Assembly (NCBI RefSeq): GCF_039555335.1
Contig: NC_092640.1
Span: 40,654,295-40,718,294 of the forward strand
DNA length: 64,000 nucleotides
Direction of reading: 5' to 3'
DNA from: Amphiura filiformis
Taxonomy: Eukaryota > Echinodermata > Ophiuroidea > Amphilepidida > Amphiuridae
Program-made: the position numbers and the translations under genes
Notes under the pieces: model-generated
Database searches by the model: none
What the model was told of the DNA's origin: nothing
What the model saw: the letters and a program-made list of their open reading frames with translations, nothing else
Shown here: positions 1,343-63,066 of the stretch, piece after piece
How positions within the stretch are numbered: position 1 is the first letter of the stretch
Layout of the letters: the number at the start of each line of letters is the position of its first letter

Positions 1343-1655
1343 TTTTTTCGCTGGGCAAATAACCCCTGCATCTTCATAGTGGTCGAGTTGTGATTTCCCC
1401 ATCCATTGTGGCTGCATTCACCTAAGCTGCTTTCTGACCCTGAACAGCTAACATCATCCAGCCATATTTCTCCAATTCCCTCTCCAAACTGAGCATTGCC
1501 AACAGCTTGTGCATCACCAGATGGAAATCCAAGTTGACGACAAACTACCATTGCATCATCACTATCCCATAAGTCATCACACACTGTTCCCCAAGCACCA
1601 TTGTAAAATACCTCCACTCTGCCTTCATTTGAATTGCTGCCACCAACAAGACGGA
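1343..1655 (-). CDS. SRCR domain exon (one-base frame shift)
   Basis: Scavenger-receptor cysteine-rich domain: [17 protein letters not shown], then [50 protein letters not shown] and HNGWGNHN. The consensus finish (C-D/G-H-x-EDAGVIC) appears only after a frame shift. AACTCGACC lacks one G near 1,382, after which [14 protein letters not shown] reads in the next frame to a GTATGT donor. Acceptor TTTCAG is clear, phase 1 in and phase 0 out once the missing base is counted. SRCR usually sits immediately before trypsin in matriptase- and corin-like proteins, so the next exon beyond the window edge could be a protease domain. Confidence 0.82.
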
Positions 1656-1859
1656 CTGAAAGAGTATCAATAGTGAGACATGCAAGGAACATTTATCATA
1701 ACGGTGGCTGAATGTGGCTTTGCATAATATAGTCAGATTGGTTAAATTGCTTTGGGGTAAAAGTGGGCAACCCCTCTCCCTCACAGGTCCAAAATAAGAC
1801 ATTTAACAGGAAAAGGATTGTTTTGTCAAAATAGTTTTAGAACAGACAATAACCTGGAT

Positions 1860-2185
1860 TGTTTAAAACCTATTTTAAATATATCTGTCATCATAATGTT
1901 TCCATAACAGGACAGAGCTTTTCATATTCTAGTGAGTGTCATCATCAGATCAATTGAATAAACAAGATGTTGGATCTTGTAAACAATAGGAGAGCTGGAA
2001 TGTCAATTTATTTATTTTTTTTAAATAAATTTTTTTAAATAAATTTTTTAATATATTTGTCATCATGTTTCCATAACAGGACTGGGCTTTCCATATTCTA
2101 GTAAGTGTCATCACCAGATCAATTGAATAAACAAGATGTTGGATCTTCTTAACAATAGGAGAGCTGGAATGTCAAATTTATTAAG
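1860..2185. repeat. Tandem duplication of an intronic unit
   Basis: Two diverged ~130-bp copies (about 1,870-2,010 and 2,045-2,185) share CCATAACAGGAC, AACAAGATGTTGGATCTT and AGAGCTGGAATGTCAA. A third related copy occurs at about 5,340-5,425. They lie in introns of the minus-strand gene and no coding potential was seen. Confidence 0.7.
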
Positions 2186-2730
2186 TCCCTATTAGTTAAT
2201 GATTTTGTCAATGTATTTTATATTGCTTTAAATAAAAGGTTCTTTTCTGTAAATTAAAGGTTATCATGATAAATGCATTTCATTTCCTTTTTTTAAAATG
2301 GCACGTAAAAAGATTGGCATGACGTGTCAATAACACATGCACCCAAAGACCCTGTATACCAAAGGACCTCCAACGAGGAGGTATCTATTCTATTCCTTGT
2401 GATACTTTTGAATTGGTCACCTGTCCATATTTTGCTATTTTGCCAATCATTGCTAAAATGTCCGGCACAACTAACATGGCATTGGCTCACTTGGCTGAGA
2501 CAGTAGGACATGAACAACAAGTGGCATTGCAAGGAGCTTCTCAAAAACTTTATATATCAAATCTGTTTCAAACATGCAACATTAATTGAGACAAGGGAAT
2601 GAATATTACTCCTATATGGAATATATTCAAACTGACCTCAGACCTGAGATATACCAACTTGATGTGGGGAAACACTTAAAAGGTAATATACTTTTATTTC
2701 AAATGACTTGACACAGTGTTCAAAGAATAC

Positions 2731-2772
2731 CTGTTTCGGATGTTGTAGGTTCCTCAGTAGTTGAATATTGTC
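2731..2772 (-). CDS. Thr/Glu-rich linker exon, second copy
   Basis: This 14-codon, phase 1-1 micro-exon encodes QYSTTEEPTTSETG, bounded by TTTCAG and GTATTCTTTG. It is a duplicate of 25,819-25,860 and lies C-terminal to the LDLa exon at 5.0 kb, the same relative arrangement as the copy at 25.8 kb after the LDLa exon at 27.9 kb. Confidence 0.65.
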
Positions 2773-2929
2773 CTGAAATTAAAACAAAAATATAGCAAGT
2801 GTTAAATGGACACTTAAAAGAGCATTTTTTATTATGATATTAAAGATGAAATGTTCCGGGATTAAGCTTAGAATTGCTATTGACTTTGCCGTAATGAATG
2901 GAGCATTCTACCTTTCATAAACATTCATT

Positions 2930-4075
2930 ACTTTAATAAAAGATACTATAAGTGATATCAGTGAAAAAGTAAAAAAAAAAATTGTAGGAATAGTTTTAAA
3001 GAGAAGAATAAGTCAATAATAAAAAAACAGACAGATTGCTCCAATATTTACTAAAATTTGACATTATGCCCTAATAAGGTCGTTTCCATCCTTGTCACTT
3101 ATAAGGTATGTACACATGAATGTATACAATGAAAACCTATTATAAATATTTAATTTACTAAGTTAAACAAGGCTGTATAAACCTAATCCCAGAATTTCCC
3201 CATTTTTTCTAAATTTTATTAAAATGAAAGACCACTCAAATGGTAGACCTTATTCTTCCCGTTCATTTGATACATTTGTGATTGCTGTGCTTAGATTTGC
3301 CTTGTCATATGCAAACGCGAGTTCTCGAAAAATATACATTTTATAAACATGGAATTACCCATATTTGACGTCTTTGTCAAATCGACTAAATCTGCAAGCT
3401 TTTGCACACATGTAGTCTTAGCTTACTGATGGTATAAAAAGGATTTTGTTTTTGAGTAACTTTATGATTTTGTCAACACATTTTAGGGGCTAGGTTTTTT
3501 TTTAGGGAGCCAAAAAATAGGGGGGAGACATAAGACATGAACATCATGTGGTTCTAGAAAGCTTGACATATTAAATCTTTGTTAAACATTAATATGCAAC
3601 ATCAATTGAGACAAGGGAATGAATATTCCTCCTAAATTCCGGAATATATTCAAACTGACCTCAGACCTACTGAGATATACCAACTTGATGTGGGGAAACA
3701 CATAAAAGGTAAATATTTTCACACTTTTGAACACTCATTAAAAAAAGAAAAGCATTCCAGATTCGTTTTTGAAACTGCCAAGGGCTTTGAGACATAGCAT
3801 TATTTTGTTAGCCTTTTAGGATGTAATTTTTGATTTTGTCGAGTTGAAATTGGTAGAGAAGGAAGCATCACCATTTTGCAACAGGGGTCCAATTTCTTAG
3901 GTTTCGGGTTCAGTTCTTGTGTACGTACGTATATGAAGTTGTATTGCATCTCTCTATTGAGGTGAGGGAGGGAACAAAACTGATTTGAAGTTGACAAACA
4001 TGATTGAGATTTGTATGTTATATTTAGAATGCCAAATTCATCCTGCATCAAAAAAGCATAAGAGAAACACAAAAA
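2930..4075. repeat. ~1.2-kb intronic repeat unit (copy 1 of at least 4)
   Basis: A unit beginning near AGATACTATAAGTGATATC and ending near GTTATATTTAGAATGCC recurs at 23.38-24.91, 26.42-27.60 and, partly, 30.80-31.70 and 28.16-28.51 kb. It contains the constant string GAAAGACCACTCAAATGG. It accompanies the linker and LDLa exons, so it was amplified with them. No ORF of known type was seen. Confidence 0.75.
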
Positions 4076-4348
4076 TTATATTGCACATAATTATGAAAGC
4101 AAACCCCTTAACTAATCTTATCTCCACACTTACCCACACAAACACACACCCCCACTCACTCTTGAGCCCACCTCTTACATGTACTTCCAAACACAGTCAC
4201 CCTAAATAATATGCATACACACCAAGTCACTCAATACACTCATATTCACTGTCATATCCATACCATAAAAATTGTTACATCAAAATAATTAAATTAAATT
4301 GCATCAAATTGTTAAACTGCATCATTGGGTGAAACAAAACATCAATTT

Positions 4349-4855
4349 TTAAGCATTAAGTAAGTTGATGAAGTGTGGAATTGGACTCTTTCTGAACCGC
4401 TCAGTTCTACAAGGTAAACGAGTGATGGAATTTGAATTGCGCAATTCTTTGCCATGCATAGAACGCCTTGTAGGGGGAATGAGATTGCTCATACGATCAC
4501 ATTTTGGCAGAGACTGAGTAAATTTAACACTGTGATTTTTCCAACGGTCAGATAGAGTCTGAATTCCACATTCTTCAATTGCATCAGTATATGAGTTGTA
4601 TTTCTTGCCAAGTATTATTTTGCAAGCCCTTTTTCAAGAGAATTAACCTGTTCACATGTCAAAGACGAATCCCATACAACATCACCATATTCTAACAATG
4701 GCCGTACATAGCCTTTGTAAATAACTGCAAGTTCATCAGATGTAAAACCAAATTTTTTAAGAGTACAGAGCATATACATGCGGCTATTGTTTTTATAGCA
4801 TTTCATTAATTTGTTTGTCCCACTTCAACTCATCCTGTATCCAAATGCCAAGAAT
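4349..4855 (-). mobile_element. CR1-like non-LTR retrotransposon, 3' end of ORF2
   Basis: The minus-strand translation shows the post-RT region of a CR1/L2-type element: WIQDELKWDKQI, then LKKFGFTSDELAVIYKGYVRPLLEYGDVVWDSSLT in pieces, ACKIILGKKYNSYTDAIEE, and CRTERFRKSPIPHFINLLNA ending in TAA at 4,349. At least two frame shifts, near 4,625 and 4,800, break it. It inserted between the repeat unit and the LDLa exon at 5.0 kb. The paralogous stretch at 27.60-27.72 kb lacks it. Confidence 0.8.
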
Positions 4856-4970
4856 GCCAGATTTCTAAACCCCCAAATTTATTTTTTTCATGGATGTTAT
4901 TTCGCTTTTGCATTTGTGTTTACAACTGAATCCTCATCTGTTATCTACATTATTTTGTTATTTTATTTAC

Positions 4971-5072
4971 CTTCACAGCCCGCTTCATCTGTTCCATCAG
5001 CACAATCATCTATATCGTCAGCATATCCAGGAACTTGAATGGAAGTAGTCCCGTCATCACATATGAAAACTT
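4971..5072 (-). CDS. LDLa exon with compensated frameshifts and a lost cysteine
   Basis: This 34-codon, phase 1-1 exon is homologous to 27,846-27,947 with the same splice sites. The start VFICDDGTTSI and end DDCADGTDEAGC match, but the middle reads QVPGYAD where the sister has PSSWICD. A one-base deletion (CCAAG to CAAG) is followed about 16 bases later by a one-base insertion (TGCGAC to TGCTGAC), so frame is restored. The result loses the central Trp-Ile-Cys and therefore one disulfide. The length is unchanged at 102 bp. Confidence 0.72.
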
Positions 5073-5828
5073 CTACATATTGACAGGGAAGAATTATTTA
5101 TAAAATTAGATTGAGCACTTACAATTTATACATGCACAATCCCCCCATTCTACACTCCTATGCCCAGCACGCACACCCCCACACAAACCCACCCACCCCA
5201 CATGCACTGGACTTTATAGACTCTCACTTCCATATATGCTTTAAGAAATAAGGGAAAGTACTCCCTTTCTTGACACTCTTATAATAAGAAAACATGATGG
5301 TTTGGTCACACCCATATCAGTAGACTGAGTTTTCGCTGCTCGAGAGAGTGTCATCATCAGATCAATTAAATGAACAAGATGTTGGATCTTGTACAACAAA
5401 AGTAGAGCTAGAATGTCAAATTTAGTAAGTCCTATTTGTGCGGGTGGAGGACAAGCAATCCAGTTTCATATCGTCGATGTGTTGAGATGTCACCAGAAAG
5501 GTAGGCACGCACTTTACTTTTGAACAGTGAAACTTTCAGGATATGTAATATGTGTGCAAATGATGACATCTATTGAATTTGAATCATGAGTAGTGATGTA
5601 GAAAAAGGGAAATTAATGAAAAACCAAAACACCAAAAGTGCAGCCAATGCCCGTGAACTTTGACAGTCACCCAATATTGCAAATAAGATTTAGCATTAGC
5701 AACTCGATCTTTATTCCATCCGATCCTACAGAAATTGGGTTACCTTAGCTGGTAACGCTTCAGCAACACCATCCATAACGCCTACCGCTTTATTTTCTAT
5801 CTGTCCACCCTAAGAAGCATTACCGCAT

Positions 5829-6360
5829 GCCGATTTTCGTAAAGCGTTTGACACGGTTTGAGGGAGGGTTTGCTTTTGGCAGCTTTGCAATTCAGGGTTG
5901 AGAGGGCGTATGTGGAGATTGGTCGATGCTCTTTATGATAATGTTCAGGCTCAGGTGAAATTTGGGAGTATCGAAACTGATTTCTTTGAAGTACTAATAT
6001 CTGAAGGAGTAAAGCAAGGTTGTGTCATCACCTGTATTATTCTGTATTTTCATTCATGAATTCACTAAATTGCTTAAAAAAACACAATGTTGGTGTGAGG
6101 ATTCATAACGTATGTGTTGGTAGCCTTTTTTGGGCAGATGATGTTGTCTTACTTGCAAACGATGAAAACGAAACAGAATGTTAAACATAGCAGCAGAATT
6201 TGCTAATGACTGGAAACTAAGCATTCATCACGATAAATCTAATATCTTAATTGCAGGTCAGCATATCGATAATAGTAAGTTATGGAAGTTAGGCTATAAA
6301 TGTGTATCAGATGTTGATTCATATAAGTATACTTATGGAGTAGAGGCTGTGCTGAAAGTG
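5829..6360 (+). mobile_element. Decayed non-LTR reverse transcriptase fragment
   Basis: RT motifs appear in order across several frames: DFRKAFDTV, LRGRMWRLVDALYDNVQAQV, GVKQGC, then WADDVVLLAND, the catalytic [FY]-A-D-D box with Trp in place of Tyr or Phe, and FANDWKLSIHHDKSNIL. Several stops and frame shifts show it is dead. The family differs from the CR1-like piece at 4.3-4.9 kb. About 360 bases after the RT end, AAATAAATAAATAAAT near 6,740 may be the element's tail. Confidence 0.75.
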
Positions 6361-6919
6361 GCTTTGTCATGATTCTGACACCACAGACTGTATATACATG
6401 TATATGCCTTTCTGTTAAGTTGAAACCATGACAAATTATCCGTCTGATATCGGTATACCCAATGATGGTAAGTGAGGGTATGCTGTGAAACTAGTAGTAA
6501 CGGTTGCCTTTTCCAGAGGTCTATACCTTGAATTTGTTTTATGTTATCGTATATAATATGTTAAACCCACTTCTAGTCAAATTGGGTTGAGGCAGTTGTG
6601 TGTTTTCATTATGTATTTCTTTTTGCTGTACATAGTACAAGTTTTACTTTTGTGCAATTTGCTTTATTTCCATTTAATATCATTTTTATGAACGCACCGC
6701 CGGATTGGCGTGTGCCACTGTTACAAAAGTGTATGTTCTAAATAAATAAATAAATAAATTATAGACATATGATAACAAAAGAACTCATTAGAGTGCTATT
6801 TAAGTGGTAATATCTATTGTGTAATTTTTCAGCGATAATCTGCAGCTTCAGTGTAATTTTCAGTCTCAATATGTCTGAAGCTATCCATCAAGTCCGTCAA
6901 AATTATACATGTATGTACG

Positions 6920-7180
6920 TCATCCACCAGTGGAGCTCCTGCGCCCCTCCGCAGAACTTCCGGTAGTTGATGTTCTGCGCCCGGTCGCAGCAATGATCCG
7001 CCGTTACATATAAGGGACTGCGCCCGGGCGCATCAACTCCGATAGTGGATGATCTGCGCCGGAGCGCAGAAATGAACCACCGTTATTATCATAAGAAAAT
7101 CAATTATTTTGCTTCCGATCGCAGCAACTCCGACAGTGGATGTTCTGCGCCCCCGAGTGCAGAACATCCAGGAGCTTATA
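6920..7180. repeat. GC-rich hairpin repeat cluster
   Basis: An island of GC-rich DNA in AT-rich surroundings holds about five short inverted repeats built on TCTGCGCC...CGCAGAA (for example CTGCGCCCGGGCGCA), separated by 'AACTCCG(A/T)CAGTGGATG'-like spacers. Each can form a stem of 6-8 GC-rich pairs. It abuts the truncated EGF exon. Its function is unknown. Confidence 0.65.
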
Positions 7181-7231
7181 TACTGCTTTGTTCAAGAGTT
7201 ACTACCTGTTTTATGGATTATAGTGCAGATT

Positions 7232-7292
7232 TTAGAGCAAGCTGCATTTTTATCACAATTATTATCAGCAGGCAGAGTACATTCGTAGTCAT
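7232..7292 (-). pseudogene. Truncated EGF exon
   Basis: The acceptor TATACAG and first half of a cbEGF (DYECTLPADNNCDKNAAC) are present. After the third cysteine, homology ends and the sequence runs into the GC-rich hairpin repeat region at 6.9-7.2 kb. The C-terminal half and usual donor are missing. Confidence 0.72.
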
Positions 7293-7596
7293 CTGTATAA
7301 AAAAGTTTTGAATACAAAATGAAACTTTAAAAAAAAAATTTCTATAAAAATTCAGAATTCGGACCAGTTGTAGGCATATTTTGCATAGTAAAATCTGAAT
7401 ATTATGATGAGAGGGGCGCTTAACCACTTCAAAAACCGGTGTCATGTGGCATATATGATCACTGTTAGTCATGTTTTTGGCCAAGTTTGAAGTTGGTCAA
7501 GGTATGTGAGTGCTACAGTAAATAATGCATGGGTTGACAAACGGAAGAAGAACCTGTAAGAAAAAAGACACAACCGGTGGTATAAAATAGACCTAC

Positions 7597-7722
7597 CTGT
7601 GCATGTTAATCCATCACCACTGTAACCAGCATTACATGCACATGTGTAGGAACCAGCGGTATTGGTGCAAGCAGCATTTATATCACAATTATTATCAGCA
7701 GGCAAAGTACATTCATCGTCAT
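7597..7722 (-). CDS. Calcium-binding EGF domain exon (intact)
   Basis: This 42-codon, phase 1-1 exon has acceptor TATACAG and donor GTAGGTCTA. It encodes a cb[32 protein letters not shown] and GYSGDGLTC. Six cysteines and the beta-hydroxylation pattern are intact. It is one of two undamaged members of a six-copy EGF exon array between 7.2 and 12.2 kb whose introns are also duplicated. Confidence 0.87.
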
Positions 7723-7879
7723 CTGTATAAAAATGTTTAGAATAAAATGTTTTTCAAAATGGACGACTAGAAATATTTTTTGAAGAATTAAAAATTCGGA
7801 CCGTGTAGGCCTATCTTGCCTAGTAAAATCTGAATAGTATGATGAGGCGATTGAGCTAGAGGGGCACTTAACCACTTCA

Positions 7880-8230
7880 AAAAAGCTGTTAATACTTGGA
7901 ATGAAATTGCACCTCAAATCCGCAAAGAATTAAATAATATGTCTTTGTATCAATTTAAAGCGCGAACAAATACTTCTGCTAAATAATTTGGGATTTCTAT
8001 TCCCTTATAAATTGTACTTTTTATAAGGACATTTTAGCTTCAGCTTGTATTTTGTATAATCTTTGCCATATGAGTTCAATACTATTTATTATGTTATTGA
8101 TTTACCATGTGTAAGATGTAAATTTACTATGTATCAATATGTATGACAGTATTTTATAATTGTATGAGGGCCTGCTTGGAAAGCAGTGCTTGACACTGAA
8201 GTGGAATTACCCTCAATAAAGAAATATTAT
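7880..8230 (+). mobile_element. CR1-like retrotransposon 3' end (5'-truncated)
   Basis: It begins in the EGF intron, where sister introns read straight on, and encodes the terminal RT-ORF residues KAVNTWNEIAPQIRKELN and SLYQFKART, ending in TAA. A 3' UTR follows with GGCCTGCTTGGAAAGCAGTG and CAATAAAG. The UTR resembles that of the insertion at 24.2 kb, so both are from related lineages. Confidence 0.75.
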
Positions 8231-8306
8231 TACCGTACTGACGCGAGTATAGTCCCACCCCGTTTTTGGGTGAACATTTTTCAAAATTGGGGGTGGGACT
8301 ATACTC

Positions 8307-8347
<41 letters not shown>

Positions 8348-10695: not shown

Positions 10696-10818
10696 CTATG
10701 CATGTTACTCCATCTCCACTGTAACCGGCATTACACGCACATGTGTAGGAACCAGCGGTATTGGTGCAAGCTGCATTTGTACCACAATTATCAGCAGACA
10801 AAGCACATTCGTCGTCAT
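10696..10818 (-). CDS. Calcium-binding EGF domain exon (intact)
   Basis: This 41-codon, phase 1-1 exon has acceptor TATACAG and donor GTAAGTTG. It encodes a complete cb[32 protein letters not shown] and GYSGDGVTC, with six cysteines. The D-x-E-C start and the C-T-N-x4-Y-x-C-x-C string match the calcium-binding and Asn beta-hydroxylation consensus. Such tandem EGFs make rigid extracellular spacers. Confidence 0.87.
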
Positions 10819-12078: not shown

Positions 12079-12203
12079 CTATGCATGTTACTCCGTCTCC
12101 ACTGTAACCGCATTACATGCACATGTGAAGGAACCAGCGGTATTGGTGCAAGCTGCATTTGTATCACAATTATTATCATCAGGCAAAGCACATTCGTCGT
12201 CAT
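12079..12203 (-). pseudogene. EGF exon copy with a one-base deletion
   Basis: Calcium-binding EGF exon with good acceptor ATACAG and donor GTAAGTTG. It starts [18 protein letters not shown] and reads on to CACNA, where GCCGGT has become GCGGT and the frame is lost. It is 125 bp instead of 126. The module otherwise matches the intact exons at 10.7 and 7.6 kb. Confidence 0.75.
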
Positions 12204-27845: not shown

Positions 27846-27947
27846 CTTCACAGCCCGTTTCATCTGTTCCATCAACACAATCATCTATATTGTCGCATAT
27901 CCAGGAACTTGGAATGGAAGTAGTCCCGTCATCACATATGAAAACTT
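27846..27947 (-). CDS. LDLa-like domain exon of the duplicated cassette
   Basis: This 34-codon, phase 1-1 exon has acceptor TATGTAG and donor GTAAATAAA. It encodes VFICDDGTTSIPSSWICD then IDDCVDGTDETGC, a short four-cysteine LDLa with intact DGTDE. It is the well-preserved sister of the exon at 4,971-5,072 and shows the ancestral state for that altered copy. A CA-rich microsatellite lies on the N-terminal side in all cassette copies. Confidence 0.85.
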
Positions 27948-29710: not shown

Positions 29711-29809
29711 CTCCACAGCTGGCTTCATCTGTGCCATTAACACAATCAATTATATTGTCGCATATCCAGGAACTTGGAATTGAAGTCCCGTCATTACATA
29801 TGAAATCTC
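29711..29809 (-). CDS. LDLa-like domain exon of the duplicated cassette
   Basis: This 33-codon, phase 1-1 exon has acceptor TGTGTAG and donor GTAAATAAC. The translation is DFICNDGTSIPSSWICD followed by IDCVNGTDEASC. Four cysteines and the NGTDE calcium motif give a short LDLa module. A near-identical copy at 14.3 kb has lost its acceptor. It lies inside the segmental duplication that also spans 12.6-14.7 kb. Confidence 0.83.
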
Positions 29810-31744: not shown

Positions 31745-31855
31745 TGCAATTTGCAAGAAGGCTTTCATCACTTCTATCCTGACAGTCAATGTTGCCATCA
31801 CAAAACATTGACTCATCAATCACTTCAAGTTGATTTCCAGGACACACTACCAAGC
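31745..31855 (-). CDS. LDLa-like domain exon
   Basis: This 37-codon, phase 1-1 exon has acceptor CATTTTAG and donor GTAAGTTATAC. It contains VVCPGNQLEVIDESMFCDG and IDCQDRSDESLLANC. The acidic DRSDE motif and cysteine spacing support an LDLa-type module with four cysteines, close in style to the exon at 34.1 kb. The downstream intron begins immediately with repeat-family DNA shared with 23.7, 26.8, 28.3 and 31.2 kb. Confidence 0.83.
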
Positions 31856-33400: not shown

Positions 33401-33750
33401 CATCAGCATTTATATTTGTTAAACAAATATGAAAGCCAAGTTGCGTTACAACTTCATCTGTGTAGAATTCAAAATAGAGGGCACTTCCATCAACAGGTGA
33501 CAAAACATCCAAATTAGGCAGGGAGGTGCGGTGTATCCTAAAAGTCTTCCATTCTGTGCTGTTCCAATGTACAGGTAATCATATCCTCTTTCTATATAGA
33601 AGTCTATAAACTGCACCAGTATTCTGCCACCTTCCTGGCACTGTACAGTCCAGAAGCATCGCATGTTATTCATGTAATTATTAGGGTAGCCATAGGACAT
33701 CAAATCAAACTTGGCATCTATTGGTATGATGATTTCAGGCTCTGGACAAA
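33401..33750 (-). CDS. CUB domain exon 3 (one-base frame shift)
   Basis: This CUB domain begins CPEPEIIIPIDAKFDL, with SYGYPNNYMNNMRCFW, then FIDFYIERGYDYLYIG and, in the shifted frame, ALYFEFYTDEVVTQLGFHIC. Frame breaks at the C-rich stretch after GYTAP near 33,520, where one base is missing. The exon is 350 bp, and 351 would be in phase. Acceptor TGTAG and donor GTAATACT are present, with phase 1-1 when the missing base is allowed for. Either sequencing or real damage would explain it. Confidence 0.8.
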
Positions 33751-34074: not shown

Positions 34075-34179
34075 AACAATCCATTGGTTCATCACTCCTA
34101 TCACTACAATGAAATATGCCATCACATATCAAATCCTCACTACCCAAAATCTCCCATCCATTGTCACAGAATATATAAT
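34075..34179 (-). CDS. LDLa-like domain exon
   Basis: This 35-codon, phase 1-1 exon has acceptor CTCTTCAG and donor GTAAGTATAG. The translation FCDNGWEILGSEDLICDG then FHCSDRSDEPMDC has the LDLa spacing and the SDRSDE calcium motif, with four cysteines visible. It sits between the second and third CUB exons, and alternating LDLa and CUB modules are typical of the stems of secreted and membrane serine proteases. Confidence 0.83.
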
Positions 34180-37330: not shown

Positions 37331-37745
37331 CTGTGTCATTAGTTAGTATATTCAGATAGCTGCATGTAAAATCCTCTCTGAGGATAAGCATAACTGCGAA
37401 CCTCAAAAGTGATGACTATCATATCAGTTCCATTAGGCGATATCATATCAAGTGGCAGACTACTTCCTGTTAGTGCCACTTCTCTCCAATTTGCTTCATC
37501 ACGTCCAAAATATAAGTAAGCACCATATGTATCTATGGAGAAATCCACAAAGTGGATGTAAATGCTGCTTCCAGTTACAACTTCAAACCCCTGAAATTCG
37601 CCGGGACCAGATGAGGTACTTACAAACCACTGGCAGATGAGGTCTCTCTCATAACTTGTGATGTAATTGGATGGGTAGTTTTTTGATGTTAGGTTGAATA
37701 CCATGCCATTATCAGGTAAAGTTATAATAGGCTCAATTCCACAAT
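37331..37745 (-). CDS. CUB domain exon 2 (stop or frame shift near its end)
   Basis: A full CUB domain: CGIEPIITLPDNG, SKNYPSNY, the IHFVDFSIDTYGAYLYFG acidic strand region and a terminal PQRGFYMQLSEYTN. In the domain frame a TAA follows EYTN. The exon then runs 14 more bases to a perfect donor (ACACAG|GTGAGT), which is in phase 1 only in another frame. The string ACTAACTAATG looks like a 4-bp tandem duplication. One CTAA fewer would join EYTND to the next exon in phase 1. Either this is a small insertion, or the protein genuinely stops here and the downstream exons belong to another gene. Confidence 0.8.
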
Positions 37746-40842: not shown

Positions 40843-40962
40843 AGTCACAATCCAGTTCATCGCTACCATCTGCACACTGTGTTACAAAGTCACATTGATC
40901 CCAGCAACTTGGTGTGCATGTTCCATCTGCACATTGAAATTGATCCGGTCTACATAATCCAG
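40843..40962 (-). CDS. LDLa domain exon after the protease
   Basis: This 40-codon, phase 1-1 exon has an acceptor after a pyrimidine tract ending TTACAG and donor GTAAGTTT. It encodes an LDLa repeat: CRPDQFQCADGTCTPSC, then FVTQCADGSDELDC. The calcium-cage pattern D-G-S-D-E is intact. It carries seven cysteines plus one extra (SCWDQC) in the central loop, which is unusual and may add a disulfide. Confidence 0.87.
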
Positions 40963-42627: not shown

Positions 42628-42906
<279 letters not shown>

Positions 42907-45807: not shown

Positions 45808-45959
45808 CTGACATGTATCATTTCCTACAATGCCAGCACAGATCATTTCATCTGTAATTCTAGAACCATAATTGAAATCAGCGCTTCTGCAGTGTTCTGA
45901 TGATATCAGTGGTACACTCACTTGCTGGAGACCGTCTGGTCCATAATAATAATAATCAC
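45808..45959 (-). CDS. Trypsin domain exon 3 (substrate-pocket region)
   Basis: This exon encodes GPDGLQQVSVPLISSEHC, the RITDEMICAG segment and NDTCQ, which ends exactly before the active-site GDSGGP. Asp in NDTCQ aligns with residue 189 at the bottom of the S1 pocket, predicting cleavage after Lys or Arg. The N-terminal side has an unusual run of four tyrosines after an Asp in the autolysis-loop region. Phase 1 in, phase 0 out, donor GTATGTATA. Confidence 0.9.
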
Positions 45960-46208: not shown

Positions 46209-46480
46209 CTTCAAGCGTTCGTCCCCAACCAGCTGCCATGCAATTTGTATATGTAGAAAGTTCATTTAAATCAGTAGCCACACATGCTGGTCTAACATAG
46301 TCAGAGAATTCAACAGGACTTTCCAATTGCAAAAGTGCTATGTCATTTCGGTCATCAAAATAGGTATATGCGGGATGAATTATCACTCTAGTCACATTCC
46401 TTTCTTGCTCGTATGGAAGGTTTTCACTTTGCTTGAGAACACCAAACCTAGCCGTTAATCCAAATGTAGAACCACTTTCT
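46209..46480 (-). CDS. Trypsin domain exon 2 (catalytic Asp)
   Basis: This 90-codon exon enters in phase 2 and leaves in phase 1. It encodes the middle of the protease: GLTARFGVLKQ, then VIIHPAYTYFDDRNDIALLQL, where Asp of NDIALL is the charge-relay aspartate, and the conserved CMAAGWGRT. One N-linked site (NVT) precedes the IIHPAY strand. No frame damage was found. Acceptor CCTTCAG, donor GTAATTGG. Confidence 0.9.
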
Positions 46481-48607: not shown

Positions 48608-48791
48608 ACACAGTGGGCTGCAGTAACTGCCCATTCCTTGTTGAGCAATGTACATCCACAAAAATGGTCAGCAAATCTTTCCAATGAACCGATCCAGAGC
48701 CATGATCCAGGGGGCGCTTCTCCTCCTCCTACTATACGAATATGTGGATCGAATGCAGGACGGGTACCGCAGAAACCAGTTTCAAAGATAT
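48608..48791 (-). CDS. Trypsin domain exon 1 (activation site and catalytic His)
   Basis: This exon encodes a linker cysteine (GFCGTRP), the zymogen cleavage site HIR|IVGGGEA and the catalytic-His block WAVTAAHC. Cleavage after Arg would free Ile for the usual N-terminal insertion. The upstream cysteine could tether the stem to the protease by a disulfide, as in two-chain serine proteases. The exon starts in phase 1 from the Frizzled exon and ends in phase 2 right after the His codon block, a common intron position in this family. Acceptor GACAG, donor GTAAGTATAC. Confidence 0.9.
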
Positions 48792-49752: not shown

Positions 49753-50079
49753 CTCCTTCCACAACTGCACAGAAATCGTCTTCACCAACAGGCAAATCTT
49801 CACAATCTATTAATTCAGATAGAGCTGGACAAGTATCAGTAGTTTCTAGACAGAAACTCTGACACATCCTCTCCCCATCAGCATCATGTGGACAAGGTGG
49901 AAACACAATTGCACACAGCATTTTGATGGCATCCTCAGAACAGCTTTCAATCTCTAGTTGATAGGATTCATAGAGCACGACAGCTTCTTCTAATGAGTTA
50001 GCCGGAGAATCAGGATAAAATGTCCGGTTATAGGGAAGAGAGTTAAGGCACTCCTCCACTGGAATTGTTTCACATGGTG
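49753..50079 (-). CDS. Frizzled cysteine-rich domain exon
   Basis: A single uninterrupted 109-codon exon carries ten cysteines in Frizzled-CRD spacing, from PCETIPVEEC through ESCSEDAIKMLCAIVFPPC and RMCQSFC to DDFCAVVE. Frizzled CRDs bind Wnts in receptors. In corin two of them sit in the stem of a transmembrane serine protease and help substrate recognition. The exon directly precedes the trypsin exons, as a Frizzled CRD does in protease stems, which is the best argument that this is a corin-like stem. Acceptor TTTTCAG, donor GTATAAATA, phase 1-1, no frame damage. Confidence 0.88.
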
Positions 50080-51644: not shown

Positions 51645-51743
51645 AACAATAAATTTCATCACTTAAGTCACTACATTCAACAGTTCCATTACAGGTTGCA
51701 CCAGCAGGGATAACCTCAATTCCATTAGCACAGGTATCAGTAT
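51645..51743 (-). CDS. LDLa domain exon (divergent)
   Basis: This 33-codon, phase 1-1 exon lies between the first CUB and the Frizzled exon. The translation contains TCANGIEVIPAGATCNG and ECSDLSDEIYC. It has the LDLa-like SDLSDE acidic end but only four cysteines, so at least one disulfide of the classical module is missing. Acceptor CTACAG and donor GTAAGTTT are clear. The joins on both sides restore sensible codons (CEVV-D-TDTC and IYC-S-PCET). Confidence 0.78.
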
Positions 51744-55600: not shown

Positions 55601-57847
55601 AACAATACAATAAACCATCATTCATTCAACAATAAAATATCAACCATCATTCAACAATACAATCAACCATCATTCAATAATACAATAAACCATTCAATAA
55701 TACATCAACCATCATTCAACAATACAATCAACCATCATTCAACAATACAATCAACCATCATTCAACAATACAATCAACCATCATTCAACAATACAATCAA
55801 CCATAATTCAACGATGCAATAAACCATCATTCAATAATACAATCAACCATCATTAAACAATACAATGCATCATTCAACAATACAATCAACCATCATTCAA
55901 CGATGCAATAAACCATCATTCAACAATACAAACCATCATTCAACAATATAATCAACCATCATTCAACAGTACAATAAAGCATCATTCAACAATACAATCA
56001 ACCATCATTCAACGATGCAAAAAACCATTCAACAATACTAACCATCATTCAACAATACAATCAACCATCATTCAACAATGCAATCAACCATCATTCAACA
56101 ATACAATCAATCATCATTCAACAATACAATCAACCATCATTCAACAATACAATCAACCATCATTCAACGATGCAATAAACCATCATTCAACAATACAAAC
56201 CATCATTCAACAATACAATCAACCATCATTCAACGATGCAATAAACCATCATTCAACAATACAAACCATCATTCAACAATACAATAAACCATCATTCAAC
56301 AATACAATCATCCATCGTTCAACAATACAATCAACCATCATTCAACAATACAATCATCTTTCAACAATACAATAAACCATCATTCAACAATACAATCAAC
56401 CATCATTCAACAATGCAATCAATCATCATTCAACAATACAATAAACCATCATTCAACAATACAATCATCCATCATTCAACAATACAATCAATCATCATTC
56501 AACAATACAATCAACCATCATTAAACAATACAATAATGCATCATTCAACAATACAAACCATCATTCAACAATACAAACCATCATTCAACAATACAATAAT
56601 GCATCATTCAACCATACAATCAACCATCATTCAAAAGTACAATAAAGCATCATTCAACAATACAATCAACCATCATTCAACGATGCAATAAACCATCATT
56701 CAACAATACAATCAATCATCATTCAACAATGCAATCAACCATCATTCAACAATACAATCAACCATCATTCAACAATACAATCATCTTTCAACAATACAAT
56801 AAACCATCATTCAACAATGCAATCAACCATCATTCAACAATACAATAAAGCATCATTCAACAATACAATAAACCATCATTCAACAATACAATAAACCACC
56901 ATTCAACAATACAATCAACCATCATTCAACAATACAATAAAGCATCATTCAACAATACAATAAACTATCATTCAACAAATGAAGAGCTTTGTTGCAAAAC
57001 CCCTTACATCCACTTTTGACTTTTTGAGAAAAACAGCTTTTTTTAATTGTGCAAGTATTACTTGTTCGATTTGATTCAATTTGGGATTGGATAAAGTGTT
57101 GATGAATAGAAACTAAAAGAATAGGTTTGGGACAATTTTCAAGGCTTCCTATTTATTTTATTATTTATTTTATATCGCACCTTTTGTGGATGTAAGGGGT
57201 TTTGCAACAAAATAAATTTACCCTTTTCTAGAAACCACCTTTGCAATCAAATTTGAGCCCATTTGTTTGCACTACATTATGTAACTTGACTAATGCTTTG
57301 AAAATCAAAAGAAAAATTTAAATATCTCATTTACTTTTTTAATTATGAATTTTTAATTAAATTCGAAAATGGCATTTTTGGGTATTTCGAAGCTACACCT
57401 TTTGTTAATTAAAATGATTTTTTCAAACATAGTGACCCAAAACAGTTCCTTTTGGTTTTAATAGGTAAAGAACATTCCAGGCTACCATTATACATCAACA
57501 AATTTAAAACAAAACAATTCTATATTCATTTTAAGTTCAGATTTCGGAAATTCCTAAGATTTCCCAAACGGAAATATGCGATAACTCCGAAGGGAAGGTA
57601 GTATGAAGGTTTAACAACCACCAAAATGTGTATTTTACCCACACTATAATATTATGCCAATAACTCAATATGGCCAAAAGTGGATTTAAGGGGTTTTGAA
57701 ACGAAGCTCTTCATTAATAAAAACACCATCATTCAACAATAAAATAAACCATTCAACATTAAAACAAACCATCATTCAACAATACAATTAACCATCATTT
57801 AATAATAAAATAAACCATCATTCAATAATACAATAAACCATCATTCA
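52668..57847. repeat. 23-bp satellite array with higher-order structure
   Basis: Long array of AATCAACCATCATTCAACAAT-type units (about 23 bp with 15- and 19-bp variants) from 52.67 to 56.98 kb and again after the inserted MITE from 57.72 to 57.85 kb. Variant strings recur about 2.0 kb apart (for example 54,060-54,310 against 56,057-56,305, and 53,170 against 55,207). The array ends within six bases of the CUB splice donor at 57,853. Open frames in it are repeat artefacts. Confidence 0.92.
56980..57713. mobile_element. MITE inserted in the satellite
   Basis: Inverted ends TGAAGAGCTTTGTTGCAAAA and the right counterpart TTTTGAAACGAAGCTCTTCA, each followed inward by CCCCTTA(C/A)ATCCAC. A third copy of this end lies inside, at 57,184-57,212. 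The pre-insertion form is visible in the satellite at about 55,016. Confidence 0.8.
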
Positions 57848-57853
57848 ACTTAC

Positions 57854-58212
57854 CTACAACTTCACAAGTAGATGACAATCGAATATTGAAACCTACATCA
57901 CTTTGACTTTCATCACTGGTGAATCTAATATACAGAGCCAGGGAGGAAAGGATATCAGGTGGAATCCGATCTTTGGTATATCTCGAGCATTTTCAAATTC
58001 TATGCTGCCACTCACATATAGGTAGTCTTCTCTTGCTAAACGGAATTCCAGGAATTCTGCATACACATAGCACTCAGTCTCACGCGGGGCTGGGGCATAT
58101 ATGGCCCATTCACAGTATGCCGAATCAAAGTAATTGGCTGGGTAATTCTTTGAATTTAATAGATATTCCTGGTCTGGATCCAGAAGTATCTCTGGTTCAT
58201 GATCACCACAAC
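57854..58212 (-). CDS. CUB domain exon 1 (one-base frame shift)
   Basis: One exon encodes a whole CUB domain, starting CGDHEPEILL, with NSKNYPANY, the CEW segment, then EFLEFRLAREDYLYV (the usual acidic calcium-site region) and ending in NIRLSSTCEVV. CUB domains are beta-sandwich modules of extracellular proteases and complement-type proteins. Acceptor TCCAG and donor GTAAGT are good, and the flanks are phase 1-1. Reading frame breaks after ENARDIPK and resumes in the next frame at DRIPPDILSS, which is a one-base deletion in an A run near 57,973. The length of 359 bp confirms it, since 360 would keep the frame. Satellite DNA begins about six bases into the downstream intron. Confidence 0.8.
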
Positions 58213-58671
58213 CTGGATAAGTGAACATGGAAATATTAAGTGTATGTGAAAACATTTGTGTGAGAAGGTGCCTATGAGCATACTCAATGAATCTGCCTCA
58301 ACATTCATATCCTTTTTTCTATAAATGGTACCCTCTGATATTTGCCACAAAATCAACACTCAGTCAAGATCCTCAACTCCTCCCCCCCGAGTCCCCTGCC
58401 AAATGAACTTTCAGAAAGAAGCAGTATATACAGGGTCAATTGTGGTCCCACCTGACATAGGGTCCAATTTCTCGAAGCTTGGCTAGTGGTCAAGCTTCTT
58501 AAGCCAGTAGGCTAGCCCTACCAATGTGGATCCATTTTATTGATTTATCTTTCTAGGTGATGTATGATGTGAAATTGTAAGCACTGGTATATAGGACTAA
58601 TTGGACTTGAGCATGATGGCTTAGGAATATTAGAAGCCTGACCACCAGCCATGCTTGAGAAACCGCCCTAG

Positions 58672-59005
58672 GTGTGTTTAGACGGCAGCATACTTTTGAA
58701 AGTACTTACTTTCGATCCAGTAATTAAATTACCCTACTTGCAAGTGTGTCCACACGGGGCTTACTTGTCAAGCAAACTCAAACTCACAAGTAAGCGTGTG
58801 ACCTTCACTGGTAAATTATATTGGATCATCAGGAGGTCATGCTTACTTACAAGTTATTTGCAAGTCTTGTTCACACAGGCCTTACTTTCGAAAGTAGCTC
58901 GTAAGATATCTTACATGTAAATCGTTGAAAGTAACTTGCAAGTAGCTACTTGTAAGTGCGTTTACATTGGCACTACTGTTATACTTTTGAAAGTAGTTAC
59001 TTTTG
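58672..59005. repeat. Cluster of ACTTTCGAAAGT / ACTTGCAAGT palindromes
   Basis: About ten short palindromes (ACTTTTGAAAGTA, ACTTTCGAAAGTA, ACTTGCAAGTA, ACTTACAAGT) within 330 bp. The block starts and ends with related direct repeats (GTTTAGACGGCAGCATAC and GTTTACATTGGCACTACTG). Probably an element, but no inverted ends were found. Confidence 0.55.
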
Positions 59006-59275
59006 ACAGTAAGCTGACTTTACTTGCGACCTTCTGAACAAGCCTTAATATTTGGTAGAACTTGAAAACCATCAAAATGTAATATAAGAAGTCCAAGTTG
59101 AAACATTGAATATTTAAACAAATAAGAAAGTATGGATTTCAATGGCAATCACCTCAGTCATCACTTGAAAATTTGGTAACATTGTTATATTTAGAAACCA
59201 GAAAATAATATTGAAAATTGCAAACCCCAGAAAGGTAGTTCAGACAGATGCGCCGATGGGGTTCGTAGATATGCA

Positions 59276-59548
59276 TTAGGCCAAAAAAAAAAAAAAGTTT
59301 GTCTCAAAGCTCACAAGAAATTTAAAAACAAATGCGAAATGCAATTTTTTTTTTTTTTTTTTTTTTTTATTCCCGACTTTTTTTCATGGTATTTTGAGAA
59401 AAAAGTCTGATTTTCGCCGATTTTTTCTGGAAAAAACTATAAAAAAAATTTGAAAAAAAAAAAATGTCCGCATTTGTTTTTTGTCAAATCGTGGGATTTT
59501 ACAAACGCGCGCGCAAGCTTTGAGACGAACCTTTTTTTTTTGGCCTTA
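59276..59548. mobile_element. A-rich MITE
   Basis: Inverted ends TTAGGCCAAAAAAAA...GTTTGTCTCAAAGCT and CAAGCTTTGAGACGAACC...TTTTGGCCTTA, with A and T homopolymer runs inside. Confidence 0.7.
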
Positions 59549-59772
59549 TACATCAAACATCAACTAGCAACATTTATGTCAAAATTTCATCATAATCTGT
59601 TTGTGGATGTTCTATATTTTAATGAGATTTCAAGATAAATAATGAGTGTGCACGCACCATAGCACAATACCATATAGTATCCATTTTGTCGGCCATTTGA
59701 TAGATAGAGAAAATTATGCTAATTATGACAACTCCAAATATCAGAATAATAGTGTTAATCAATGTATTGCTG

Positions 59773-60017
59773 TATTCCGTTCACAAGGCTTAATGTAAGT
59801 CCAAATTAACCCTAACCCCAAGCAGTCGCTTTTAGGCCATCTTTGTCCGATGGTCATATAGTATTAAAGTGTCATAGGAAGTTTCATAGACAGCCACAAA
59901 AAGAAACTTGCTAAATGTATGACACTTTACTATTTGACCATCAGACAAAAATGCCTAAAAGCAACTGCTTGGGGTTAGGGTTAATTTGGGCTTACATTAA
60001 ACCTTGTGAACAGAATA
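59773..60017. mobile_element. Foldback element with internal TTAACCCTAACCCC
   Basis: Arms of about 115 bp: ATTCCGTTCACAAGGCTTAA, AAATTAACCCTAACCCCAAG and CAGTCGCTTTTAGGC, with inverted counterparts ending GTGAACAGAATA. It shares the telomere-like string with the 36-kb elements, but here the inverted repeat extends well outside it. Confidence 0.75.
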
Positions 60018-60150
60018 TATACATCAGGTATCAATATGAAGATTATATTACTAAGATAACCTACATTGTAGCTAGTAAGAAAACTTTTTTCTTGTTTTGG
60101 CAGCTCTACTTACAATATATGGGTGATTCCCAATCCATCAAACTTGGAAC

Positions 60151-60635
60151 CAGGGTTGTTGATTTTTGATTTAAATCGGATTTTTTTATTTAAATCGATT
60201 TTTTGATTTTTTAATTCCAAAAACTGCTATACCACATAATAAGTTCAAAAGAGATCAGTGGGATACTAGACATATGTACAATACTATCAGGTATTTACAA
60301 AAATTCAAAACGTGTTTTTACATGTGAAAATTTCAAAGAAAAAATTTGGCAAAAATCATGGGGGAAAACCTGTTGAATTTGGCACCTTGGAGATGAATTT
60401 TTAGCAAAAGATAAAGTGACATCATAAAGGTATTTTAATTGTATCCAAAGGTTAGAGAAACATCATGAATGATGTAAAACAGTCAAATTAAGAATGAAAT
60501 TAAGTTATATTTATCAAAACTGGTAAAAAATGAAAAAAGTTGATTTAAATCAGTGATTTTAAAAAAAATCAAGTGATTTAAATCACGATTTAAATCACTG
60601 ATTTAAATCAACACGATTTAAATCAAACAACCCTG
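60151..60635. mobile_element. hAT-type MITE with 8-bp target duplication
   Basis: 485-bp element with CAGGGTTGTTGATTT and AAATCAAACAACCCTG ends, flanked on both sides by CTTGGAAC. GATTTAAATC palindromes are repeated near both ends. The 8-bp duplication and CAGGG terminus are hAT hallmarks. Confidence 0.88.
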
Positions 60636-61100
60636 CTTGGAACTGCTCTCCAAATACAGCTATTTTTGGCTAAAAATATTATTATGGTCATTTTGTACCT
60701 CAAACCACAATATATGCCAACAATTTAAATCATGCTAAAAATTGTTTCTTATACTAATAATCAGTATTTTAAGGCATGTTAGTGACTTATTGGTGAATTT
60801 TGTTATTCTAGTGCATTTCAAAGGAAATAGTCTATTCTGGTGGCCATTTTGGATTAAGAAGATGCAAAAGAAACAAAATGTGCAAATATATATTTCTGTT
60901 CATTAGAAATAGTATTCATTCCATTGATATTTTGTATCATTAGGTAGCTATAATGTATATGGAAAACCCTTATTTGGTGGCCATTTTTGGATGCGATCTA
61001 GAAAATTTACTTGGTCTGAATTTCAACTTTTTTTAAGGTCTTGGCATTATATAACATGAAAATGCATAAGTCTTTGAAAGAGTCATGTACATTTCCATAT

Positions 61101-61171
61101 CTTTCTGGTATGCAGTTTCCATTGGGACAAAAGAAACCCATCGCATGGCACATCTGTTTGAGCAGTTGTAC
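61101..61171 (-). pseudogene. Half LDLa exon remnant
   Basis: This is the 5' half of the same LDLa exon, from the acceptor through the residues around CPNGNCIPE. Homology to the sister exons stops abruptly near 61,101 and there is no donor. One extra A in the run before the first CPNG codon also breaks frame. It is a truncated end unit of the tandem LDLa amplification and is unlikely to be spliced in. Confidence 0.75.
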
Positions 61172-61253
61172 CTGTAGTTAAAACCGGAAATGTATTAACT
61201 ACTACATGTTTCTGTTAAAAAATAATAACATTGAATTTCAATGTGTAGCTTAC

Positions 61254-61385
61254 CTGAAGGACAAGATTGCTCATCCCAGTAGTCACCACAATCATCGATC
61301 CCATCACATATAAATGTTTCTGGTATGCAGTAGCCATTGGGACAAAGAACCCCATCGCATGGCACATCTGTTTGAGCAGTTGTAC
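61254..61385 (-). CDS. LDLa domain exon (second intact copy)
   Basis: This 44-codon, phase 1-1 exon is a sister of 62,935-63,066. All six LDLa cysteines are present, and the calcium-binding segment reads [15 protein letters not shown] where the sister has DGDNDC. The acceptor CTACAG and donor GTAAGCTACAC are intact. The intron sequence shared with the other copies shows that the duplicated unit is about 215 bp and includes flanking intron. Confidence 0.88.
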
Positions 61386-61471
61386 CTGTAGTTAAAACCC
61401 GGAAATGTATTAACTACTACATGTTTCTGTTTAAAAATAATAATAACCTTGAATTTCAATGTGTAGCTTAC

Positions 61472-61604
61472 CTGAAGGACAAGATTGCTCATCCCAGTAG
61501 TCACCATTAATCATCGGTCCCATCACATATAAATGTTTCTGGTATGCAGTAGCCATTGGGACAAAGAAACCCATCACATGGCACATCTGTTTGAGCAGTT
61601 GTAC
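61472..61604 (-). pseudogene. LDLa exon copy with a frame-breaking insertion
   Basis: This is a third near-identical copy of the 44-codon LDLa exon with intact acceptor and donor, but it is 133 bp instead of 132. The codon for the fifth cysteine (TGT in the sisters) reads TAAT, which inserts one base and creates an immediate stop in frame. If spliced it would terminate the protein. Skipping it keeps frame because the exon is phase-symmetric. A base-calling error is the alternative explanation. Confidence 0.8.
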
Positions 61605-61639
61605 CTGTAGTTAAAACCGGAAATGTATTTAACTACAAC

Positions 61640-62880
61640 ATGTTTGAAAGAAAAAAAAGCAAGGTACACCAACTTGATGTGGGAGAACAAGTAAAATGCA
61701 GACTAGACAGTACGCAGGGGGACAAAACAGCAAATGTAGGCATAAGAAGTAGACAAAGTTCGATAGCCAAAAATTACCAGTTCCAAGACCCAGAGAAGTG
61801 CTGAACCTGCAAAAACAACAAGGATCAATGGTAATACAAAAGTGCACTAGAACGTGTTATGAAAATCACTGTGCATATAAACAGACACGCTAAACCAAAC
61901 ATACAGTGTAGGCACAAAACAGGCAAAGTTGGATGGCCAAAATTGCCAATTCCAAAGCCTACAAAAGTGTCAGGAAAACAGTACACTGGAAGTGATGAAA
62001 ATCACTGTACACATAGCAGTCAAGCAACATCAAACAGACAAAAAAAACCTGACGTTTCGAGCAGATAAAGCAAACAACAAGACTACATGCTGTAGTTTAA
62101 AAACAAATTGAAGTCAAAAATTGAAGGCAAGTTCAAATTGAACTAAGTAGCAAACAAGACAGCAAACTCAGAGCAAAATAAGCTGTGTCTTCACTCAGTG
62201 GGAGCGAGTTCACTACAAAGTGACAGTGTTGAGAGAAAAAGAAAATTCATGGTCCATGCGTGTTGCGTGATAAAGATAGTTCTCAGTGCATGTATATAGG
62301 CCTGTAGATGAAAGTAGCAAATAAAAAAAAAATTCACTAAAACCAAAGAACGGTGAAATACCAAGCAACAGATAGACATGAAATATGCCAAAATAGGTAG
62401 TGATAAAATGTCTATACAAGCAAGCAAGGAGGCCTACAATATATGGAAGCCACATGTGAGTTGACACATCAAACATGTAGGTCCAGTATTGCAAGTAAGG
62501 TCCATAGGCCTAACATAGATGCATGCACTGGCATGTTAATCTTTAACATTTAAGCCAAGTGGTTGGGTTGTCTGAAGTTATGAGATCCAGTCTTTCTCAA
62601 GTTTCTTTCGCATGAAAGTGTCAGTCTTTGGGGGTTTGTCAATACACATGACAATGTGATTAGCAGAATGTCATGGGAGGTTGAAATGTTTTGCTACTGG
62701 TGTATTTCTGATAAGACGAGCATCAGCACAATGCTCAGTCAGTCTGGTTTCCAGGTTACGACCAGTCTCTCCCACATATACTGCACTTGGCAATTAGCAC
62801 ATGTGATGAGGTAGATCACTCTCCCAACTGAGGTGTTTGTGGATGACATGACTTTCACATAAAATAAACACATCAAGGAT
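61640..62880 (-). mobile_element. Penelope-like retroelement fragment
   Basis: It interrupts the tandem LDLa unit (ACTAC(A/T)ACATGTTT on both sides). At 62,545-62,846, minus strand, it encodes a GIY-YIG-type endonuclease end: VIYLITCANCQVQY, YVGETGRNLETRLTEHCADA, NTPVAKHFNLP and FMRKKLEKDWIS. A TA insertion and a TGA break the frame. The left half has two copies of a ~130-bp block containing GATGGCCAAAATTGCCAATT-like and GAAAATCACTGT(A/G)CA strings. The reverse transcriptase part is absent. Confidence 0.72.
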
Positions 62881-62934
62881 TACATGTTTCTGTTTAAACA
62901 AAATAATAACCTTGAATTTCAATGTGTAGCTTAC

Positions 62935-63066
62935 CTGAAGGACAAGATTGCTCATCCCAGTAGTCACCACAATCATTGTCTCCATCACATATAAATGTTT
63001 CTGGTATGCAGTAGCCATTGGGACAAAGAAACCCATCGCATGGCACATCTGTTTGAGCAGTTGTAC
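62935..63066 (-). CDS. LDLa domain exon (first intact copy)
   Basis: This 44-codon exon is phase 1-1, with acceptor ...CTACAG and donor GTAAGCTAC. It encodes an LDL-receptor class A repeat with all six cysteines, including [15 protein letters not shown] followed by [12 protein letters not shown]. The acidic C-terminal cluster D-x-x-D-x-x-D-E is the calcium cage that folds LDLa modules and usually contributes to ligand or partner binding. It is almost identical to the exon at 61,254-61,385, including the flanking intron, so it is a recent tandem duplicate. A Penelope-like insertion now separates it from the copy at 61.5 kb. Confidence 0.88.

Follow-up and report, generated by a model that had tools for sequence, protein, structure and literature searches.

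We analyzed a 64,000-nucleotide stretch of the Amphiura filiformis genome (assembly GCF_039555335.1, contig NC_092640.1, positions 40,654,295 to 40,718,294 of the forward strand; hereafter the window), in which an initial annotation had proposed a mosaic protease encoded by at least 20 minus-strand exons. Using translation, the location of splice-bounded exons and Pfam scans, we modelled 22 domain-encoding exons on the minus strand between positions 63,066 and 1,343. The modelled modules follow the order three LDLa, CUB1, LDLa4, Frizzled (Fz), trypsin (four exons), LDLa5, CUB2, LDLa6, CUB3, LDLa7 to LDLa9, three EGF, LDLa10 and SRCR. The locus is probably part of a gene for a large extracellular protein that carries a trypsin-like protease in mid-chain and not at its end. 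The reading that we favor, with moderate confidence, is a large extracellular trypsin-like zymogen in which trypsin is followed by at least one LDLa and one CUB module in the same transcript, a protease half resembling the A. filiformis protein P0244 being joined to a scaffold tail resembling its paralogue P0240.

The trypsin domain is complete over four exons (Pfam E-value 2.4e-45) and is preceded by an exon encoding a Frizzled cysteine-rich domain (CRD), as had been proposed. The R/IVGG activation site, the His-Asp-Ser triad and the Asp189-type pocket of the protease core are all intact, and joining LDLa4-Fz-trypsin(4)-LDLa5, seven exons in all, gives a single open frame of 438 amino acids (aa). 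The triad, the IVGG site and the residues that we take to be Asp189, Gly216 and Gly226 are features of S1A proteases with trypsin specificity, and the last three would imply cleavage after Arg or Lys. The core contains the ten cysteines that presumably form the five usual pairs, and one extra cysteine. The latter is located two residues after C42 in the trypsin exons (42903-48791), at a position that we assume to be usually Gly in S1 proteases and unpaired in the usual scheme. In a structure comparison, the predicted catalytic domain resembles solved S1 proteases, with enteropeptidase as the best match.

The internal position of the trypsin domain, for which the splice 42,741/40,962 had been named as a junction to check, is supported by an NCBI protein whose model makes this splice, P0001 ('chymotrypsinogen B-like [Amphiura filiformis]', 488 aa, 67.5-Mb contig), which is 100% identical to the locus over the shared part. 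Its layout is Fz(part)-trypsin-LDLa5-CUB2, starting with a Met within the Fz exon and ending with a TAA in CUB2. The public annotation already puts trypsin internally, but as a short incomplete predicted model. The catalytic domain ends with a GTAAGT donor in phase 1, as LDLa5 requires (a GTRAGT would occur in this phase within 40 nucleotides (nt) by chance with a probability of about 0.007), and the acceptor of LDLa5 agrees in phase and has a good pyrimidine tract. For P0001, AlphaFold gave a model with a mean pLDDT (predicted local distance difference test score) of 60.4 and values below 50 at residues 314-488; because it is poor beyond trypsin, it is uninformative on the packing of LDLa5 and CUB2. 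The ATTAAA at 42,709 was rejected as a decisive signal of transcript end, since AATAAA or ATTAAA occurs 110 times on the minus strand.

The same junction bears on a possible arrangement of two neighboring genes, in which the protease gene would stop after trypsin, the exons from LDLa5 on would form part of a scaffold gene of their own, and the NCBI model would have fused the two. The halves of the locus match different paralogues, and the paralogues P0143 and P0243 end at trypsin, as two genes would suggest. We nevertheless regard this arrangement as improbable: LDLa5 matches an internal scaffold module, so that a separate gene would lack its 5' part, and the donor after trypsin is strong and in phase. 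Moreover, the 1.78-kb intron after trypsin yielded no candidate for a first exon resembling a signal peptide, as it is a region where none of the 14 minus-strand ATG-hydrophobic-donor candidates (any phase) fall in a scan made without a positive control, that is, without a trial on a known first exon.

Several observations weigh against the single zymogen. The unspliced frame of trypsin exon 4 continues to a stop at 42,627-42,625, and the start of P0001 at an internal Met marks it as an incomplete predicted model. Two A. filiformis paralogues, P0143 and P0243, carry their trypsin at the C-terminus. LDLa1-3 matched 0 of 10 related proteins and are thus only putative members of the same gene. 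Frame breaks, in CUB1 upstream as well as in other exons, prevent any long protein from being read without interruption.

A protein search aimed at CUB3-LDLa7-LDLa4-Fz, restricted to 625-1,988 aa and E <= 1e-4, identified six proteins, all from A. filiformis. By their module maps, P0240 and P0241 (97.7-Mb contig) are protease-free EGF/LDLa/CUB scaffolds with SRCR at the C-terminus. P0243 and P0143 (102.7-Mb contig) possess the same kinds of modules with Fz-trypsin at the end, the model of P0244 (78.6-Mb contig) ends, truncated, in CUB-LDLa-Fz-trypsin, and P0242 is a scaffold cut short. At residue 1540, P0243 has GDDGGP instead of GDSGGP, Asp replacing the catalytic Ser; judged by this residue, its protease is probably catalytically dead. 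The family spans at least four large contigs (67.5, 78.6, 97.7 and 102.7 Mb).

By tblastn with 10 related proteins, the upstream exons, beginning with CUB1, run colinear with residues 905-1215 of P0244 (65-79% identity; CUB1 in two pieces of 65% and 68%, the Frizzled exon at 79%), and the downstream exons are colinear with P0240-P0242 (CUB2 80%, CUB3 83%, LDLa7 89%, SRCR 60%). The EGF exons match P0150, and LDLa1-3, LDLa8 and LDLa10 have no match among the 10 proteins. Because the halves match P0244 and P0240/P0241, respectively, the locus has the appearance of a protease module fused with the tail of a scaffold. The locus and P0244 share the order CUB1-LDLa4-Fz-trypsin start, but the P0244 model stops inside the first trypsin exon, and its N-terminal HYR, LDLa and CUB modules were not seen in the window. 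The order LDLa5-CUB2-LDLa6-CUB3-LDLa7, with SRCR later, is common to the locus and P0240/P0241, whereas the latter are without a protease and their N-terminal EGF/LDLa cluster is unmatched upstream of LDLa5 in the window. P0143 and P0243 combine CUB3- and LDLa7-type modules (P0243 also CUB2 and LDLa6) with Fz-trypsin in one chain, but their trypsin is C-terminal, besides the Ser replacement in P0243.

These paralogues also bear on the earlier proposal of a multi-protease with a second trypsin domain after SRCR, below base 1 of the window. Such chains exist, as in coelacanth TMPRSS9 (P0012, LDLa-trypsin-LDLa-trypsin), but P0240 and P0241, the scaffold paralogues nearest to the locus, are protease-free and have SRCR as their last module. 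Since a tail of this type ends at SRCR, we would not expect a second trypsin and consider its presence highly improbable on these comparisons.

The Pfam scans covered three minus-strand frames each of 1-15,000, 15,001-24,000, 24,001-34,000, 34,001-49,000 and 49,001-63,999. They are not exhaustive, as Fz was missed in the whole-frame scan though found on its own open reading frame (ORF). No Pfam match was found in any of the three minus-strand frames of 15,001-24,000. Trypsin, SRCR, EGF, CUB3, Fz (own ORF only), LDLa1, LDLa3 and LDLa9 score above the Pfam cut-offs; LDLa5 (E 9.1e-5, 23.0 bits versus a cut-off of 24.1), CUB1 and CUB2 score below them. LDLa6, 7, 8 and 10 were assigned by motif, and LDLa6 and LDLa7 also by paralogues. 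The Frizzled exon matches Frizzled-3 in PDB (E 5e-4). For CUB2, the PDB profile search gave a single chance match (E 1.5), and we therefore identified it as a CUB by profile comparison with related CUBs, in which its paralogue profile has a CUB3-type match at 97.8% probability. Chance assembly of the motifs was ruled out by the Pfam scores, the 100% NCBI match and the colinear paralogues. Phase compatibility was set aside as decisive evidence, since exons encoding extracellular modules mostly share phase 1-1. All modelled exons are listed in Table 1.

Table 1. Domain-encoding exons modelled in the window, in the order of the minus strand. Percentages refer to the proteins named.
Exon	Position	Strand	Characteristics
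LDLa1	62935..63066	-	Phase 1-1; Pfam LDLa E 2.9e-8; placed in the gene by splice signals alone
LDLa2	61472..61604	-	133 nt, broken frame; tandem copy of LDLa1/3
LDLa3	61254..61385	-	Phase 1-1; Pfam LDLa E 1.4e-9 (best of three stretches)
CUB1	57854..58212	-	Loses frame near 57,980; Pfam CUB E 0.036, below cut-off
LDLa4	51645..51743	-	Phase 1-1; P0244 67% (tblastn)
Frizzled CRD	49753..50079	-	Phase 1-1; Pfam Fz E 4.2e-11 on own ORF
Trypsin exon 1	48608..48791	-	R/IVGG activation site and catalytic His; identical to P0001
Trypsin exon 2	46209..46480	-	Catalytic Asp; Cys122-like
Trypsin exon 3	45808..45959	-	Asp189-like specificity residue
Trypsin exon 4	42741..42903	-	GDSGGP; GTAAGT donor at end, phase 1; P0001 splices onward from here
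LDLa5	40843..40962	-	First after trypsin; equals P0001 residues 315-353
CUB2	37331..37745	-	In-frame TAA at 37,341-37,339, donor 8 nt further; P0001 ends here
LDLa6	34075..34179	-	Phase 1-1; P0241 65%, P0240 54%
CUB3	33401..33750	-	Loses frame near 33,525; Pfam CUB E 1.7e-9; P0242 83%
LDLa7	31745..31855	-	Phase 1-1; P0242 89%
LDLa8	29711..29809	-	Phase 1-1
LDLa9	27846..27947	-	Phase 1-1; Pfam LDLa E 2.9e-5; P0242 50%
EGF	12079..12203	-	Broken frame
EGF	10696..10818	-	Phase 1-1; EGF_CA E 9.4e-12 in this frame; P0150 78%
EGF	7597..7722	-	Phase 1-1; EGF_3 E 6.5e-17 in this frame; P0150 71-77%
LDLa10	4971..5072	-	Keeps frame; LDLa cysteines lost
SRCR	1343..1655	-	Loses frame near 1,385; Pfam SRCR E 2.3e-28; P0240 tail 60%

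The frame is kept in 16 of the 22 exons and broken in LDLa2 (61,604), CUB1, CUB2, CUB3, the EGF exon at 12,203 and SRCR. The compatible phase ascribed to the whole chain by the initial annotation thus holds for the 16 exons and fails in the six, which include all three CUBs and SRCR. The in-phase run claimed from trypsin to SRCR stands as far as trypsin-LDLa-CUB in P0001, whereas past CUB2 it is interrupted by the TAA, which ends reading in the second CUB, and by frame breaks. This TAA is probably secondary by comparison with the CUB2 paralogues, because they read through its position and on into LDLa6.

A protein that ends in CUB2 as P0001 does, with the exons from LDLa6 to SRCR as remnants of the tail of a scaffold gene, is a possible though not a preferred outcome. 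P0001 stops at the TAA; decayed LDLa and EGF copies and the broken CUB3 and SRCR lie downstream, and the codon comparisons (below) carry no signal of selection. On the other hand, a donor is located 8 nt past the TAA, where the paralogues splice to LDLa6, so that the stop looks secondary, and LDLa6, 7, 8 and 9 are still intact.

The opposite possibility, which can be put forward only tentatively, is one long gene through SRCR (LDLa5-CUB2-LDLa6-CUB3-LDLa7-9-EGF-SRCR) with the breaks being assembly errors or allele-specific. It extends the zymogen reading and does not exclude it. The module order agrees with the P0240/P0241 tails down to the terminal SRCR. For an R9.4.1 nanopore flye assembly of A. 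filiformis, the genome paper gives a quality value (QV) of 31.6, or 0.00068 errors per base (PMC11310086); at this rate, 2.6 errors are expected in the 3,817 nt of the 20 exons tallied, compared with five breaks there (P 0.12), but the QV covers all types of error, and those that break the frame should therefore number fewer than 2.6. A CG dinucleotide adjoins the frame loss in CUB1, CUB3 and SRCR, i.e., in 3 of the 5 tallied breaks versus 8.5% of exon bases, with adjacency judged by eye and the test picked after the sites had been seen. Methylated motifs are described as a source of nanopore consensus error (Dcm in bacteria; PMC6591954), and the CG adjacency hints at methylation-linked base-calling error. 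Exon identity exceeds that of both flanks in 16 of 19 copy pairs, which also suits a long gene.

Other observations disagree with a long gene. A short tandem repeat is present at the CUB2 TAA, and a cysteine is also altered in LDLa2; neither would seem to resemble a base-calling error. Codon comparison of exon copies gave no sign of purifying selection (1 silent to 3 replacing changes in LDLa1/3, 0 to 9 in LDLa9/10), and this stretch also contains decayed LDLa and EGF copies. A search at 342-1,088 aa, dominated by EGF proteins, gave no A. filiformis protein identical past CUB2 among the 120 matches listed of 592, and none was present among the six found at 625-1,988 aa.

Carried to its full length, the long gene would have a single intact allele encoding a chain of probably more than 1,000 residues (CUB-LDLa-Fz-trypsin-LDLa-CUB-LDLa-CUB-LDLa-...-EGF-SRCR), an active protease inside a recognition scaffold; we hold this to be rather doubtful. 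Such a chain would have arisen when a protease gene was joined to the tail of a scaffold family undergoing expansion; the enzyme would be tethered at either side, and SRCR and CUB modules would perhaps direct it.

Decayed LDLa copies are located at about 14.3 kb (Pfam E 0.0023, below cut-off) and 13.7 kb, and decayed EGF copies at about 11.3 and 9.2 kb. The decayed or cysteine-losing LDLa and EGF copies, including that at 4971-5072, show that the 3' modules have been duplicated locally more than once. Breakage or misassembly may have affected the last third of the gene.

The breaks could further mean that the entire locus is a pseudogene in decay, one copy in a protease-scaffold family that is active elsewhere, as 6 of the 22 exons are broken on both sides of the protease and an in-frame stop is present. 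This is unlikely, given that the 438-aa core is open across seven exons with the triad, activation site, S1 pocket and ten usual cysteines intact, and that the broken exons, judged by eye, have altered frames but no stops scattered through them.

The window trypsin was placed in a midpoint-rooted tree of 32 trypsin domains from 27 hand-picked proteins, with P0036 left out. It falls in a 12-row clade (support 95/86) of mostly echinoderm proteases, which comprises all 9 rows labelled Fz and 3 others (P0031, P0039, P0045); the 9 Fz rows do not form one clade (3 changes). The sea-urchin proteins P0021 and P0031 share this clade. P0021 consists of a partial Fz (below the Pfam cut-off), trypsin and one CUB by Pfam, with a second CUB by eye, P0031 is trypsin-CUB-CUB-EGF-EGF, and P0036 is trypsin-CUB-CUB-EGF, both of their CUBs being Pfam matches. 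These three Strongylocentrotus proteins thus resemble the locus in having CUB after trypsin (and EGF in P0031 and P0036), but they have no LDLa or SRCR after trypsin, and P0031 and P0036 have no Fz. The corin-like sea-urchin proteins P0017 and P0030 carry CUB, LDLa and Fz ahead of trypsin as the locus does, but their trypsin is C-terminal. Corin itself likewise has Fz and LDLa before trypsin; in contrast to the locus, its trypsin is C-terminal with SRCR just before it, whereas the only SRCR found in the window lies far downstream and P0001 runs past trypsin. Corin is also anchored at its N-terminus as a type II transmembrane protein.

Among proteases with a non-terminal catalytic domain, insect Nudel has the formula LDL(2)-SP-LDL(2)-SPH-LDL(3), in which LDL modules follow the active protease (PMC11172050) as LDL follows trypsin in P0001; unlike the locus as modelled, Nudel as given by that formula has no Fz, CUB or SRCR and has a second protease-homologue domain. 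No second protease-like domain was found in the minus-strand Pfam frame scans of the window, which can miss domains. Ovochymase-2 has C-terminal CUBs (PMC10850435), and polyserase-1 combines several protease domains and an LDLa in a single chain (PMC1435904); the passages describing them mention no Fz, and polyserase-1 has three protease domains versus one found in the window. The internal trypsin position is therefore unusual but not new, with related arrangements in proteins of sea urchins, insects and vertebrates. The new architecture suggested by the initial annotation is too strong a claim, since sea-urchin relatives already carry CUB and EGF after trypsin and Nudel is a precedent. The apparent novelty lies in the combination: LDLa is the first module to follow Fz-trypsin, and the scaffold tail, if translated, closes with SRCR; this architecture was not found in print in the open-licence literature searched.

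Under the favored reading, the product would be a secreted or surface zymogen. Cleavage after Arg at R/IVGG would yield an active Arg/Lys-specific enzyme, which the Cys1-Cys122 pair would then hold to the Fz/LDLa/CUB side, its C-terminus staying on the LDLa-CUB side through the chain. The active enzyme would thus be tethered and work where the modules bind. The releasable protease that had been suggested is unlikely to arise by activation alone, as both cysteines that we take usually to tie the activated domain to the propeptide are present and the C-terminal side continues into LDLa in P0001.

If translated past trypsin, the locus shows extracellular proteases gaining C-terminal targeting modules by exon joining in a duplicating gene family. 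With protease, probably dead-protease and protease-free members, this family is a good system to trace the gain, movement and loss of a catalytic domain, and its host animal, A. filiformis, is studied for arm regeneration. No N-terminal exon was found in the window, and both the start and the end of the protein may be given wrongly by the present assembly and gene model.

The window also contains repeats and mobile elements. Two long plus-strand ORFs (637 and 480 aa) at 16457-19916, between the LDLa9 and EGF exons, have DUF1759 and weak aspartic-protease matches, as in what we take to be BEL/Pao retrotransposons. A reverse-transcriptase fragment (RVT_1 E 2.7e-11) is located on the plus strand at 63381-63998, just upstream of LDLa1, and is open at the window edge. 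The CUB1-LDLa4 intron contains a 23-bp satellite array of about 191 copies (52675-56978) with very strong GC skew. Finally, the sequence AGGTCAAAGGTCA has 23 matches with at most one mismatch versus 0.16 expected (32744-33217, 38648-40201, 45532-45544 and 52183-52425), mostly in tandem repeats of about 110 bp that carry direct repeats of one half-site, presumably a nuclear-receptor half-site.

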